A stretch of 64,000 bases of DNA from Nocardioides marmoriginsengisoli. GTDB taxonomy: Bacteria > Actinomycetota > Actinomycetes > Propionibacteriales > Nocardioidaceae. Location of the stretch: positions 99,096 through 163,095 of the forward strand of contig NZ_RJSE01000005.1 in the NCBI RefSeq assembly GCF_003725695.1. Reading direction: 5' to 3'. Positions 11,109-24,862 of this stretch are shown here, one piece after another. The position numbers and the translations under genes are program-made. Below the pieces are notes generated by a model. The model saw only the letters and a program-made list of their open reading frames with translations, searched no databases and had not been told where the DNA came from. The stretch's first letter is position 1; every line of letters starts with the position of its first letter.

Positions 11109-11179
11109 GGTGGGTTGGCCGAGAGGCGAGGCAACGGACTGCAAATCCGTCTACACGGGTTCAAATCCCGTACCCACCT
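11109..11179 (+). tRNA. tRNA-Cys (anticodon GCA)
   Basis: The acceptor GGTGGGT pairs with ACCCACC; the anticodon loop CTGCAAA carries GCA; the T-arm is CGGGTTCAAATCCCG. It lies 25 nt after tRNA-Gly. No CCA is encoded. Confidence 0.95.
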
Positions 11180-11203
11180 CGAACAGCAGCACAGTTTCAC
11201 CTA

Positions 11204-19631: not shown

Positions 19632-21089
19632 TCAGCTCAGCTCGAGGCCCGGGTACAGCGGGTGCTTGTCCAGCATCTCAGCGGACTGCGCACGCACCCG
19701 GTCGGCCACCCCGTCCGCCATCCGGTACGTCGCCTTCGACGGCGCACCCGCCTTGTTGACGCCGGCCTCGGTGTTGGTGAGCACGTCGACGATCATCTCG
19801 GCGACCTTGTCGAACTCGTCGTGACCGAAGCCGCGAGTGGTCAGCGCCGGCGTACCGAGGCGGACGCCGGTGGTGTACCAGGCGCCGTTCGGGTCGTTGG
19901 GCACCGAGTTGCGGTTGGTGACCACGCCGGCGTCGAGCAGCGCCGACTCCGCCTGGCGGCCGGTCAGGCCGAACGAGGCGACGTCGAGCAGCACGATGTG
20001 GTTGTCGGTGCCGCCGGTGACGAGCTTGGCGCCCCGGGTCAGGAACCCGTCGGCCAGCGACTTGGCGTTGTCGGCGATGTTCTGGGCGTAGGTCTGGAAC
20101 GCCGGCTGGCGGGCCTCGGCCAGGGCGACGGCCTTGGCGGCCATCACGTGCGAGAGCGGGCCGCCGAGGACCATCGGGCAGCCGCGGTCGACGTCGGCCG
20201 CAAACTCCTCCTGCGCCAGCACCAGGCCACCGCGCGGGCCGCGCAGCGACTTGTGGGTGGTCGTGGTGGTGATGTGGGCGAACGGCACCGGGTTCTCGTC
20301 GCCGGTGAACACCTTGCCCGCGACCAGGCCGGCGAAGTGCGCCATGTCGACCATCAGGGTGGCGCCGACCTCGTCGGCGATCTCGCGCATCTTGGCGAAG
20401 TTCACCCGGCGCGGGTACGCCGAGTAGCCGGCGACCAGGACGGCCGGCTTGAACTCACGGGCCTTGGCCGCGACGACGTCGTAGTCGAGCAGGCCGGTCT
20501 CCGGGTCGGTGCCGTACTGCTGCTGGTGGAACATCTTGCCGCTGATGTTCGGGCGGAAGCCGTGGGTCAGGTGGCCGCCGGCGTCCAGGGCCATGCCGAG
20601 CAGGCGCTGGTTGCCGAACTCGTGGCGCAGCGTCTCCCAGTCAGTCTCGGAGAGCTCGTTGACGTTCTTGACGTTGTACTTCGCCAGCGCCGGGGTCTCG
20701 ACCCGGTGGGCGAGGATCGACCAGAAGGCGACCAGGTTGGCGTCGATGCCCGAGTGCGGCTGCGCATAGGCGTACGGCGCTCCGAAGAGCTCGCGGGCGT
20801 GCTCGGCGGCGAGCGCCTCGACCGTGTCGACGTTCTGGCAGGCCGCGTAGAAGCGGTGGCCGACGGTGCCCTCGGCGTACTTGTCGGAGAACCAGGTGCC
20901 CATCGTCATCAGCGTGGCCGGCGAGGCGTAGTTCTCGGAGGCGATCAGCTTGAGCGACGAGCGCTGGTCGGCCAGCTCCTTGCGTGTGGCCTCGGCCACA
21001 CGGGGCTCCACCGACGCGATCACCTCGAGCATGGCGTCGTACGCCGTGGAGGTGGTCTTGGCGAGGGTTTCAGGGGTGGCATCGCTCAT
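19632..21089 (-). CDS. glyA: Serine hydroxymethyltransferase
   Basis: This PLP enzyme interconverts serine and glycine with tetrahydrofolate. The PLP lysine is in [14 protein letters not shown], with [14 protein letters not shown] and [12 protein letters not shown] also conserved. At 485 residues it is of the longer form (N-terminal extension relative to ~430-residue enzymes). The ATG at 21089 has TAGGCT 6 nt upstream, which decides between it and a GTG two codons earlier. It converges on the response regulator gene with a 10-bp gap. Confidence 0.95.
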
Positions 21090-21159
21090 GGGCACAGCCT
21101 AGAGCCGCGTCCCGGGCGTGTCCCGAGCACCCAGACGTGTACCAAATGATGGACAGCCG

Positions 21160-21174
21160 TCTCATGACATGAGA
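21160..21174. promoter_or_regulatory. Perfect 7-1-7 palindrome upstream of the sulfate operon
   Basis: TCTCATGACATGAGA is a perfect dyad, followed at about 21180 by GTTTGTGAAAC, a second 4-3-4 inverted repeat. Both lie upstream of the leader-peptide ORF. They are candidate operators for a sulfur-responsive regulator. Confidence 0.4.
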
Positions 21175-21218
21175 TTCGAGTTTGTGAAACAGGTGTCCGG
21201 AACCTGAGACTTGACCCC

Positions 21219-21308
21219 ATGATCAGCGCCGCCACCTCGACCTGGCTCGTGACACGTCGTCACGTGGACCTGGGTCGTACCGGCAGCATGATGTGTCTGA
21301 ACCGCTGA
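21219..21308 (+). CDS. Short leader peptide upstream of sulfite reductase
   Basis: The ORF encodes 29 residues from ATG 21219, or 19 from the in-frame GTG at 21249. The core LVTRRHVDLGRTGSMMCLNR matches the RRHVDL...C pattern of the actinobacterial putative leader peptides often seen before sulfur and ABC-transport genes. A single Cys codon stands four codons before the stop. Translation of the Cys codon could sense cysteinyl-tRNA and control the downstream operon, by analogy with cysteine-rich attenuator ORFs in mycobacteria. The stop is 75 bp before the sulfite reductase start. Confidence 0.7.
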   Translation: MISAATSTWLVTRRHVDLGRTGSMMCLNR

Positions 21309-21383
21309 ACGCCCGCCCACCGTTCCCGCCTCCCGCGCGCAACGAAGCACGCGATTCCTTTCAGCGAAGGACCTCTCCCCACC

Positions 21384-23111
21384 ATGCCTGACCTGCGTTT
21401 CGACTCCCAGCCGCCTCGCGCGACCGAGATCCCCCGCCCCAAGAGGGCCGAGGGGCAGTGGTCGCTGGGCCAGCGCGAGCCGCTGAACAAGAACGAGCAG
21501 TCCAAGAAGGACGACGATCCGCTGAACGTGCGGGACCGGATCCTCTACACGTACTCCAAGAAGGGGTTCGACTCGATCGACCCCGCCGACCTCCGCGGAC
21601 GCTTCCGCTGGATGGGGCTGTACACCCAGCGCAAGCCGGGCATCGACGGCGGCCGGACCGGCTCGATGGAGGAGGAGGAGCTGGACGACCGCTTCTTCAT
21701 GATGCGGGTCCGCTCCGACGGCGCGCTCCTGAACGCCAAGGCGCTCCGGGCGCTGGGCAGCATCGGCACCGACTTCGCCCGGAACAGCGCTGACATCAGC
21801 GACCGGCAGAACATCCAGTTCCACTGGATCCAGATCGAGGACGTCCCCGCGATCTGGGAGCGCCTCGACGAGGCCGGCCTGAGCAGCCTGGAGGCCTGCG
21901 GCGACGGACCGCGGCCCTTCCTGGGCTCCCCCGTCGCCGGTGTCGCGGCCGACGAGATCATCGACGGCACCCCGGCGCTGGAGGAGATCAAGCGCCGCTA
22001 CCTGAACAACAAGGACTTCTCGAACCTCCCCCGCAAGTTCAAGACCTCGGTCACCGGGCACCCGAGTCTGGACACCGTCCCGGCGATCAACGACGTCTCG
22101 TTCGTCGGCGTGGTCCACCCCGAGCACGGTCCCGGCTTCGACCTCTGGGTCGGCGGCGGTCTCTCCACCAACCCGATGTTCGCGCAGAAGCTCGGCGTCT
22201 GGATCCCGCTGGACGAGGTTCCCGACGCCTGGGCCGGGGTCACCGGCATCTTCCGCGACTACGGCTACCGCCGGCTCCGCTCGAAGGCGCGGCTGAAGTT
22301 CCTGGTCGCCGACTGGGGCGTCGAGAAGTTCCGCGAGGTCCTCGAGAACGAGTACCTCGAGAAGAAGCTGGTCTCGATGGACTCGCCGCCGGTCTCGACC
22401 GAGAGCGGCGACCACGTCGGCGTGCACGCCCAGAAGGACGGCAACTTCTACATCGGTGCCGCTCCGGTGGTCGGCCGGATCAACGGCGAGACCCTGACCG
22501 GGCTCGGGGACCTGGTCGAGAAGTTCGCCCTCGCCGGTGCCCGCCTGACCGCCCAGCAGAAGCTGGTCGTGCTCGGCGTCGCGCCGGCCGACGTGGACGC
22601 GGTCGTCGCCGGCCTGCTGGAGCTCGGCCTGGACGCGAAGCCGTCGAACTGGCGTCGCAACACGATGGCCTGCACCGGCATCGAGTACTGCAAGCTCGCG
22701 ATCGTCGACACCAAGGAGCGGTCCCGCGCGCTGATCGCCGAGCTGGAGAAGCGGTTCCCCGAGCTCGACACCCCGATCACGGTCAACGTCAACGGGTGCC
22801 CGAACGCCTGCGCCCGTACCCAGACCGCGGACATCGGCCTCAAGGGCATGATCGCGCTGGACGAGGACGGCAACCAGGTCGAGGGCTTCCAGGTGCACCT
22901 CGGTGGCGGCATCGGCATGCACGACACCTTCGGCAAGAAGCTGCGCGCCCACAAGGTGACCAGCGCCGGCCTCGACGACTACATCACCAACGTCGTGACG
23001 GCGTACCTGGCCGACCGTACCGACGGCGAGAGCTTCGCCGCCTGGGTCGTCCGCGCCGACGAGGTCCTGCTCCGCGGCGAGAAGGCCCTGGAACCGGAGC
23101 CGGTCGCATGA
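21384..23111 (+). CDS. sirA: Ferredoxin-dependent sulfite (nitrite/sulfite) reductase
   Basis: The 575-residue haemoprotein reduces sulfite to sulfide using siroheme and a 4Fe-4S cluster. The cluster/siroheme ligands are ACTGIEYCK (C-x5-C) and NGCPNACAR (C-x3-C). Two ferredoxin-like half domains and two cluster-binding half domains occur in the normal order. Context (zinc-ribbon protein, APS reductase, sirohydrochlorin chelatase) assigns it to assimilatory sulfate reduction rather than nitrite. Its ATGA overlap with the next ORF shows translational coupling. Confidence 0.93.
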   Translation: MPDLRFDSQPPRATEIPRPKRAEGQWSLGQREPLNKNEQSKKDDDPLNVRDRILYTYSKKGFDSIDPADLRGRFRWMGLYTQRKPGIDGGRTGSMEEEELDDRFFMMRVRSDGALLNAKALRALGSIGTDFARNSADISDRQNIQFHWIQIEDVPAIWERLDEAGLSSLEACGDGPRPFLGSPVAGVAADEIIDGTPALEEIKRRYLNNKDFSNLPRKFKTSVTGHPSLDTVPAINDVSFVGVVHPEHGPGFDLWVGGGLSTNPMFAQKLGVWIPLDEVPDAWAGVTGIFRDYGYRRLRSKARLKFLVADWGVEKFREVLENEYLEKKLVSMDSPPVSTESGDHVGVHAQKDGNFYIGAAPVVGRINGETLTGLGDLVEKFALAGARLTAQQKLVVLGVAPADVDAVVAGLLELGLDAKPSNWRRNTMACTGIEYCKLAIVDTKERSRALIAELEKRFPELDTPITVNVNGCPNACARTQTADIGLKGMIALDEDGNQVEGFQVHLGGGIGMHDTFGKKLRAHKVTSAGLDDYITNVVTAYLADRTDGESFAAWVVRADEVLLRGEKALEPEPVA

Positions 23112-23302
23112 CCGCGCGCGCAGTGCCGTACCACTGCCCCTTCTGCGGTGACGAGAACCTCTGGCCCCACGCGGCCGCCGAGGGTGCTGGTCACGGCGAG
23201 TGGGAATGCCGGTCCTGCCTGCGCGCGTTCAAGGTCTCGATGATCAAGCAGCTCCCGCGGCCCGCGCTGGGACAGCCTGCCGGATCGGGAGGCACACCAT
23301 GA
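23108..23302 (+). CDS. Small zinc-ribbon protein of the sulfate-reduction operon
   Basis: The 64-residue protein has two CxxC knuckles: Cys10/Cys13 in HCPFCGDE and Cys34/Cys37 in WECRSCLRAF. Its ATG overlaps the sulfite reductase stop and its own stop overlaps the cysH start, both as ATGA. This double coupling makes it a real operon member. It could bind zinc or a cluster and assist electron transfer or assembly; function is not established. Confidence 0.85.
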   Translation: MTARAVPYHCPFCGDENLWPHAAAEGAGHGEWECRSCLRAFKVSMIKQLPRPALGQPAGSGGTP

Positions 23303-24045
23303 CCGCACCCACCACCCTGGCCGCTCGGGCCGCGCGCGGCACCCTGACCGAGGGTCGTAGCACGGCCGAGCTCAAGGATCTCGTCTTCCAGGTCGGGGCC
23401 GAGCTCGAGCTCGCGCCGGCCGAGGACATCATCGAGTGGGCGGTGGCCACCTTCGGGTCACGGTTCTGCGTGACGTCCTCGATGGGCGACGCGGTGCTGG
23501 CGCACGTCGCCTCGAAGGTCGCACCCGGCGTCGACGTCGTCTTCCTGGACACCGGCTACCACTTCGTCGAGACCATCGGCACCCGGGACGCCGTGGCGGC
23601 GACGATGCCGGTGAACCTGCTGACGATCACCCCGGTGCAGTCGGTGGCCGAGCAGGACGCCCAGTACGGCAAGGATCTCTACAAGACCGACCCCGACCTG
23701 TGCTGCAAGCTGCGCAAGGTCGAGCCGCTGGCCACCTCGCTCGCCGGGTACGACGCCTGGGCGACCGGTCTGCGCCGCGCAGAGACCCACAACCGGGTGA
23801 TCGCGCCGGTCGTCGGCTGGGACGAGAAGAAGCAGAAGGTCAAGGTCTCGCCGCTGGCGCGGTGGACCGACGAGGAGATCGAGCAGTACATCCTCGAGAA
23901 CGGCGTCCTGGTCAACCCGCTCCAGTACGACGGCTACCCGTCGATCGGCTGCTGGCCGTGCACCTCCCGGGTCGCCCCCGGCGAGGACTCGCGCAGCGGT
24001 CGCTGGGCGGGCCAGAACAAGACCGAGTGCGGGATCCACCAGTAA
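23299..24045 (+). CDS. cysH: Phosphoadenylyl/adenylyl-sulfate reductase (APS type)
   Basis: The 248-residue enzyme reduces activated sulfate to sulfite with thioredoxin. The paired cysteines DLCCKLRK and the later GCWPC ligate a 4Fe-4S cluster, which indicates APS rather than PAPS reductase. The catalytic Cys lies in TECGIHQ at the C-terminus. The PP-loop region is VTSSMGDAVLAH. The ATG at 23299 follows GGGAGG and overlaps the upstream stop. Confidence 0.93.
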   Translation: MTAPTTLAARAARGTLTEGRSTAELKDLVFQVGAELELAPAEDIIEWAVATFGSRFCVTSSMGDAVLAHVASKVAPGVDVVFLDTGYHFVETIGTRDAVAATMPVNLLTITPVQSVAEQDAQYGKDLYKTDPDLCCKLRKVEPLATSLAGYDAWATGLRRAETHNRVIAPVVGWDEKKQKVKVSPLARWTDEEIEQYILENGVLVNPLQYDGYPSIGCWPCTSRVAPGEDSRSGRWAGQNKTECGIHQ

Positions 24046-24118: not shown

Positions 24119-24862
24119 ATGACCGCCCCAGCCCTCATCGCCCTTGCCCACGGCAGCCGGGACCCGCGTTCCAAGGCAACCATCGAGGCGCTCGTCGCCG
24201 AGACCCGGAAGATGCGTCCGGACCTGCGGATCGAGGTGGCGTTCCTCGACCACGTCCGGCCGTCCTTCGAGACCGCCGTCAACAAGCTGGTGCGGGCGCG
24301 CTTCGAGGAGATCGTGGTGGTGCCGCTGCTGCTCAGCGAGGCCTTCCACGCGAAGGTGGACGTGCCCGAGGTGATCGCCGCCGCGGTCGCCCAGCACCCC
24401 GGCCTGCAGATCCGGCCCACCAAGGTCCTCGGCCTGGAGCACGCGTTCCTCGAGGTGCTCGACAAGCGCCTGCGGGAGGCCCTGAGCGCAGCCCGGGTCC
24501 GTGAGCTCGACGCCCTGGTGCTGGCCGCCGCCGGTTCCTCCGACCCGATCGCGAACCAGGCCGTGGCCCGGCTCGCCCGGGTCTGGGGAGCCCACCACAA
24601 GCTGCCCGTGACGGCGGCGTTCGCGTCCACGACTCCCCCGGCCACCGGCGAGGCCGTTCGCGCCTTCCGCGCCGAGGGCCGTCGCCACGTCGCGGTGGCA
24701 TCGCTCTTCCTGGCCCCCGGCTTCCTGCCGGACCGGGCCAACGAGCTGGCCGTCGAGGCCGGTGCCGTCGCGGTCTCCGAGCCGCTGGGCGCCGACCCGG
24801 AGGTCGCCCGGACCATCCTGGCCCGGTACGCCGTGGGTGCGGTCGAGCTCGTTCCCGTCTAG
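24119..24862 (+). CDS. Sirohydrochlorin chelatase (CbiX/SirB family)
   Basis: The 247-residue protein has two chelatase half-domains. The first has LIALAHGSRDPRS with the metal-binding His and LLLSEAFHAKVDVPEVI. In the second, LVLAAAGSSDP and LFLAPGFLPDR replace the usual His. Its position behind sirA and cysH suggests iron insertion to make siroheme for the reductase. GGGAGG precedes the ATG. It is the last core gene before the island. Confidence 0.88.
   Translation: MTAPALIALAHGSRDPRSKATIEALVAETRKMRPDLRIEVAFLDHVRPSFETAVNKLVRARFEEIVVVPLLLSEAFHAKVDVPEVIAAAVAQHPGLQIRPTKVLGLEHAFLEVLDKRLREALSAARVRELDALVLAAAGSSDPIANQAVARLARVWGAHHKLPVTAAFASTTPPATGEAVRAFRAEGRRHVAVASLFLAPGFLPDRANELAVEAGAVAVSEPLGADPEVARTILARYAVGAVELVPV

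Follow-up and report, generated by a model that had tools for sequence, protein, structure and literature searches.

A conserved leader ORF with a fixed TGT cysteine codon and a covarying RNA hairpin ahead of the genes for sulfite reductase and APS/PAPS reductase in Nocardioides marmoriginsengisoli

Upstream of the genes for a sulfite reductase and an APS/PAPS reductase in Nocardioides marmoriginsengisoli lies a short ORF that, as comparison with relatives supports, looks like a translated, leaderless regulatory peptide with a fixed cysteine control codon. The ORF, located in a 64,000-nucleotide stretch of DNA that was analysed as a whole (the window), is confirmed by this comparison as real and far beyond chance, because its 29-residue peptide matches 144 of the 149 genomes of the family (Nocardioidaceae) at E<=1; an earlier sequence-only reading, which had seen a 29- or 19-codon ORF ending in an RRHVDL-type leader pattern, is borne out in this respect. 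Cysteine leader attenuation is a known kind of control, predicted in 2005 and shown in M. smegmatis in 2020, and the ORF appears to be a real, conserved case of that mechanism whose score falls under the curated cut-offs of the named leader families. We consider it quite probable that it acts as a leaderless, cysteine-responsive attenuator before nirA, a small ORF and cysH. Two of its features seem to be new: the locking of the control codon, codon 13, to TGT, and an RNA hairpin inside the ORF in Nocardioidaceae. Neither of them, nor the leaderless promoter layout, was part of the sequence-only reading, whose proposal of a ribosome stalling at a Cys codon is partly supported by the sequence. 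The features of the region are listed below, with positions in the window.

19632-21095, direction opposite to the leader: serine hydroxymethyltransferase gene
21160-21174, no strand assigned: operator-like palindrome TCTCATGACATGAGA, just upstream of the -35 element
21182-21187, plus strand: -35-like element TTGTGA, with conservation across 122 loci at positions -37 to -33
21206-21211, plus strand: -10-like element GAGACT, with conservation across 122 loci at positions -13 to -8
21219-21308, plus strand: leader peptide ORF MISAATSTWLVTRRHVDLGRTGSMMCLNR, 29 codons from ATG to TGA, with homologues in the family and sub-cut-off matches to NF042936 and NF042934
21248-21264, plus strand: RNA hairpin CGUGAC-acguc-GUCACG in the leader ORF, from pairing and covariation
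21255-21272, plus strand: codons of the conserved RRHVDL motif, from the codon table of 123 loci
21294-21296, plus strand: control Cys codon, spelled TGT, 13 codons beyond the first RRHVDL Arg
21309-21366, plus strand: C-rich spacer, candidate Rho-loading (rut-like) region, with 28 C and 13 G among 58 nt
21367-21371, plus strand: Shine-Dalgarno sequence AAGGA of nirA, read from the sequence
21384-23111, plus strand: nirA-type ferredoxin-dependent sulfite/nitrite reductase (Pfam NIR_SIR 9.8e-59, NIR_SIR_ferr 7e-31)
23108-23302, plus strand: small CxxC...CxxC ORF, zinc-ribbon-like, with ATGA overlaps to nirA and cysH
23299-24045, plus strand: cysH, APS/PAPS reductase (Pfam PAPS_reduct 1.8e-43; NCBIfam NF002537 above its cut-off)
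24119-24862, plus strand: CbiX-type sirohydrochlorin chelatase (Pfam CbiX 4.3e-41)

The start of nirA at 21384 lies 75 nt past the leader stop. Sulfur genes do follow the leader, as the sequence-only reading had it, but its term 'sulfate operon' is loose, the genes being those for the sulfite reductase, the small ORF, cysH and CbiX. No NCBIfam model scores above its cut-off for either the nirA-type protein or the small ORF. Because ATGA overlaps join nirA, the small ORF and cysH, the three are probably coupled in translation. An Rfam scan of the window returned four tRNAs only; around the leader there were two matches at chance level, under the gathering score. A tRNA-Cys gene with anticodon GCA is found at 11109-11180, some 10 kb upstream of the leader and between genes for tRNA-Gly and tRNA-Val.

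The comparison drew 124 loci from 123 of the 144 matching family genomes, leaving 21 genomes aside, and all of these loci but one (L117) aligned gap-free on R-x-H-V-D, which gives 123 anchored loci. Of these anchored loci, 122 entered the promoter counts and 103 the spacer and Shine-Dalgarno counts. A nirA-type gene lies within the fetched DNA at 119 of the 124 loci (the exceptions are L020, L027, L103, L117 and L127). Named nirA relatives belong mostly to Nocardioides, Marmoricola and Aeromicrobium, and among 80 named nirA loci, a set that overlaps the other family set, the leader with TGT is present at 76, the codon being TGT in all 76.

The ORF had been read as either 29 or 19 codons long, and it is the 29-codon form that we prefer. 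Promoter layout is conserved across the 122 loci, which have TTG at -37 to -35, GAGACT at -13 to -8 and, in 98% of cases, a C at -1, so that the -35/-10 array ends at the C directly 5' of the ATG; the start of the 19-codon form, a GTG at codon -2, instead falls within the conserved hairpin. Start codons are ATG at 111 of these loci and GTG at 11, and motifs resembling a Shine-Dalgarno sequence are not enriched before the leader (6 of 122, against a chance expectation of 9.1, sd 2.6). A scan with a generic sigma-70 consensus gave no promoter match at the leader. From this arrangement we infer that the transcript starts at or beside the leader ATG, which would make it leaderless. Further upstream, TCTCA..TGAGA is conserved at about -58 to -45 from the leader start in the 122 family loci.

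Within the peptide, the residues around the motif are close to invariant among the 123 anchored loci: L-3 is found in 123, V-2 in 121, R0 in 123, H2 in 123, V3 in 122, D4 in 123, R7 in 118 and C13 in 123. The codon for R0 is nevertheless CGA at 54 loci, CGT at 35, CGC at 27, CGG at 6 and AGG at 1, and because an invariant residue is thus spelled with five codons the peptide itself is under selection.

How does this leader relate to those already named? The 29-residue form matches NCBIfam NF042936 (Ms4527A family Cys-rich leader) with 22.4 bits (E 6.7e-5) and the 22-residue form with 23.4 bits, both under the cut-off of 45 bits; for NF042934 (cis_reg_atten, putative leader peptide) the scores are 21.8 (E 1.1e-4) and 22.7 bits, under the cut-off of 27. 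The matches are local and run across the RRHVDL..C stretch. NF042936 and NF042934 share with our leader a short ORF and sulfur genes downstream; NF042936, however, is named Cys-rich, whereas our leader has one Cys. In the class, 199 of 296 genomes match NF042934 at E<=0.001 and 177 of 296 score above the cut-off; in the phylum 15 of 198 genomes match, 14 of those 15 belonging to the class. To extend the comparison beyond the family we used the best-scoring NF042934 hits in the class rather than a random draw (30 loci and 60 regions, 90 loci in all), of which 86 could be anchored (L147, L262, L271 and L300 could not). Among 82 ORFs downstream of these best-hit leaders, matches include Rhodanese (18), DUF4395 (15), NIR_SIR_ferr (10), PALP (5), luciferase-like (4), Sulfatase (3) and PAPS_reduct (3). 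Many sulfur genes of the wider class thus have a leader of this kind in front of them.

Three sense codons separate the single Cys codon of the leader from the stop; the codon stands where the sequence-only reading had noticed a lone Cys codon near the leader end. Counted from the first Arg of RRHVDL, this Cys is codon 13 at 123 of 123 anchored loci and is written TGT in every one of them, whereas Cys codons in the nirA fragments of 103 family loci are TGC 209 times and TGT 6 times. The same lock is seen in the class, where among the 86 anchored best hits codon 13 is TGT in 85 and TGC in 1, while in the same leaders codon 6 is TGC in 49 and TGT in 2, and codon 11 is TGC in 27 and TGT in 10. 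Leaving aside the polycysteine-bearing family f5, codon 13 is TGT in 70 and TGC in 1, against TGC 81 to TGT 6 at all other positions; 35 of the 37 ORFs with both Cys6 and Cys13 (f5 again excluded) have TGC at 6 and TGT at 13, and only TGT occurs at codon 13 in 23 of the 24 class families examined. Downstream ORFs of the 82 class loci use TGC 215 times and TGT 28 times. Both the family and the class set contain related genomes, and kinship among loci inflates any p value for TGT, whereas the contrast between codons of one ORF is independent of kinship.

Could that U be kept by a partner in the RNA? Among the 40 of 103 loci listed, the third UGU base had no consistent partner. This base pairs somewhat more with the start region of nirA than other leader-end bases do (0.228 vs 0.084), and a T-to-C change at UGU carries a small folding cost (+0.32 vs -0.87 kcal/mol at control wobbles), so that an RNA role of this U is conceivable. 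Other family leader codons are unusual too, and TGT is therefore not the sole deviation: R0 is CGA in 54 of 122, G6 is GGT in 70 of 110 and R7 is CGT in 60 of 118, against 2%, 10% and 7% in nirA.

In Nocardioidaceae the leader codons also encode a covarying RNA hairpin, formed by the codons for LVxRRHV. A covariation scan over all leader columns has (-3,+5) as its strongest pair, and excess pairing peaks at (-2,+4); the two stack, and this helix also tops the well-paired stems of a stem scan. In 90 distinct sequences 96.3% of cells are paired, as opposed to 89.5% after shuffling, 30 cells are changed on both sides (7.2 shuffled) and covariation amounts to 0.277 (0.136 shuffled), a value that none of 500 shuffles reaches. 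When synonymous codons were resampled with residues fixed and nirA codon usage, 4.40 of 6 pairs were expected (sd 0.08) and 5.78 were seen. The two neighbouring arginines differ: each of the 90 CGN codons for R1, which lies in the stem, has C or T as its third base, but for R0, which lies in the loop, this holds for 62 of 122. Placed on a nirA tree of 102 loci, the pair (-3,+5) is GC in 75, AT in 15, GT in 12 and AC in 0, and the AT state needs 7 changes; independent contrasts for this pair go in the same direction in 5.1 of 6 and never in the opposite one, with a borderline median p of 0.0625, and for the second hairpin pair 0.9 of 3 go in the same direction, which is not significant. As a single sequence the hairpin is ordinary, at -8.6 kcal/mol for 21245-21268 (z -0.77). 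An extended hairpin in the window's own fold was discarded, its outer part not being conserved, as was the idea of a class-wide hairpin: none of the 86 class leaders keeps six pairs and 2 of 86 keep five of six.

We suggest that these elements work together as follows. Transcription would begin at, or right beside, the leader ATG and a 70S ribosome would translate the 29 codons. With Cys-tRNA plentiful, the ribosome would pass UGU and end at the stop, and expression of nirA, the small ORF and cysH would fail, most likely through exposure of the C-rich spacer to Rho or through an unfavourable mRNA fold. With Cys-tRNA scarce, it would stall with UGU in the A site and cover the leader end and the start of the spacer, so that expression continues; this step is proposed because the design resembles that of mycobacterial Cys sORFs. 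The tRNA-Cys of the window, with its anticodon GCA, would read UGU by G-U wobble, and the UGU spelling is most simply accounted for if UGU, read in this way, is the slower Cys codon, which would heighten the sensitivity of a sensor built on a single codon. Like the pause hairpin of the trp leader, the hairpin could keep RNA polymerase and ribosome in step. A scan of 21090-21400 found no intrinsic terminator, and in this the leader departs from the classical trp-type attenuator. C exceeds G in all 103 family spacers (C 0.49 and G 0.27 in the first 40 nt), as expected of a Rho site, but coding stretches also have more C than G (leader 94 of 102, nirA 99 of 102), and the argument for Rho is therefore weak.

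Attenuation by codon counting has to be weighed against other uses of the same elements. One possible, if doubtful, scenario is nascent-peptide arrest: RRHVDL would act in the exit tunnel while UGU is being decoded and respond directly to cysteine or to some other sulfur metabolite, and the codon would merely mark the arrest site. The peptide is indeed conserved beyond the needs of counting Cys, with R0, H2 and D4 in 123 of 123 loci at a fixed spacing to Cys, and RRHVDL would trail the P-site residue by 12 to 7 residues, a distance that fits the tunnel constriction; it is also found in leaders that have no hairpin. If the peptide were the only sensor, however, retention of TGT over TGC would go unexplained, because one tRNA-Cys presumably reads both codons, and the motif does vary among class leaders (RLHVDL, RRAVDL). 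Joining both ideas, one might tentatively imagine a composite ribosomal sensor throughout the class, made of a nascent R-x-[HA]-V-D-L peptide and a UGU 13 codons after its first Arg, in which the wobble-read UGU and not cysteine as such is the selected element, and which is common to several sulfur operons per genome; we regard this as speculative.

Alternatively, the leader end might pair with the Shine-Dalgarno region of nirA unless a stalled ribosome is present. Such sequestration was reportedly proposed by Canestrari for a mycobacterial polycysteine sORF, and in the minimum free energy fold of the window CGCUGAA, at the leader stop, is base-paired to UUCAGCG, beside the Shine-Dalgarno sequence, complementary stretches being seen in several congeners. 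When 103 loci were folded free, with a ribosome at UGU, with a ribosome at the stop and with shuffled spacers, mean accessibility of the Shine-Dalgarno sequence was 0.29 free and 0.29 stalled at UGU (20 up, 22 down), and shuffled spacers, at 0.32, were hardly above native ones. Thermodynamic folding is a weak test; with no net effect in 103 loci it lends no support to simple masking as a general mechanism, and we think it unlikely that sequestration explains the leader. Least probable by far is that the ORF is incidental to a DNA operator or an untranslated RNA element: palindrome and hairpin are both present and conserved, yet there is synonymous variation beneath fixed residues (all five spellings of R0), ATG placement is exact, and G-U and compensatory pairs would be needless in a DNA dyad. 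A cysteine-responsive attenuator remains our preferred reading.

Precedents for such an attenuator are available. Seliverstov et al. 2005 (PMC1262725) predicted cys leader peptides in Mycobacterium and P. acnes, in which Cys codons come in runs and no conserved hairpin could act as terminator, and suggested Rho; our leader shares with them the Cys leader peptide and the lack of a terminator hairpin and differs in having a single Cys instead of a run. Mycobacterial polycysteine leaderless sORFs were described by Shell 2015 (PMC4633059), are attenuators in M. smegmatis according to Canestrari 2020 as described in PMC9031893, and also appear in PMC13236596 and PMC9094748. Our leader, leaderless as judged by its sequence, shares with them the leaderless design, Cys near the stop and a sulfur operon downstream; unlike them, ours has a single Cys, always TGT, and a conserved in-ORF hairpin, and the mycobacterial model of Shine-Dalgarno masking is unsupported for the family by the folding of 103 loci, a weak test. 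The cysS attenuator of Rhodobacterales, uORFC-8-2 (PMC8632094), is likewise a uORF whose Cys codons are conserved and which has RNA structure, but it has tandem Cys codons with UGC dominant and an intrinsic terminator. We did not find the TGT lock at leader codon 13 in the literature searched, which comprised titles and the openings of abstracts in partial reading.

Theory on codon choice in attenuators, as discussed in PMC1183508, concerns the selective charging of isoacceptors and asks which synonymous codon senses best. Here one spelling is fixed against a strong TGC bias even though a single tRNA-Cys probably reads both UGU and UGC, so that another explanation is needed, such as wobble decoding speed, an RNA role or an interplay of peptide and codon. 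The spelling can be tested by one silent base change, and R-x-[HA]-V-D-L together with TGT at codon 13 provides a sequence rule for finding sulfur-controlled operons in actinobacteria.

The genome itself holds further leaders of this kind. A second one, MSTTFHTVRRHVDLLRTASSLCR, at C14:699874-699921 (L130), scores 31.4 bits with NF042934, above the cut-off, and has TGT as the Cys at codon 13; the gene after it presumably resembles a luciferase-type monooxygenase. A weak third, RRAVDHCRTRSSLC, at C5:28252-28308 (L131), also has TGT as codon-13 Cys and precedes an ORF that we take to resemble DUF4395. A looser form of the palindrome with a downstream TTT occurs twice in the genome, one copy being at C5:28184-28207, and because each precedes a Cys leader, one transcription factor may be shared across the palindrome-bearing Cys leaders. 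Finally, the family loci whose spacers span 100-160 nt, for instance L017, L023 and L015, have motifs in common before the Shine-Dalgarno sequence, GGGCGCGCGGTCGCCGG and CTCGTGCGTCT among them, and these may form another conserved structure.
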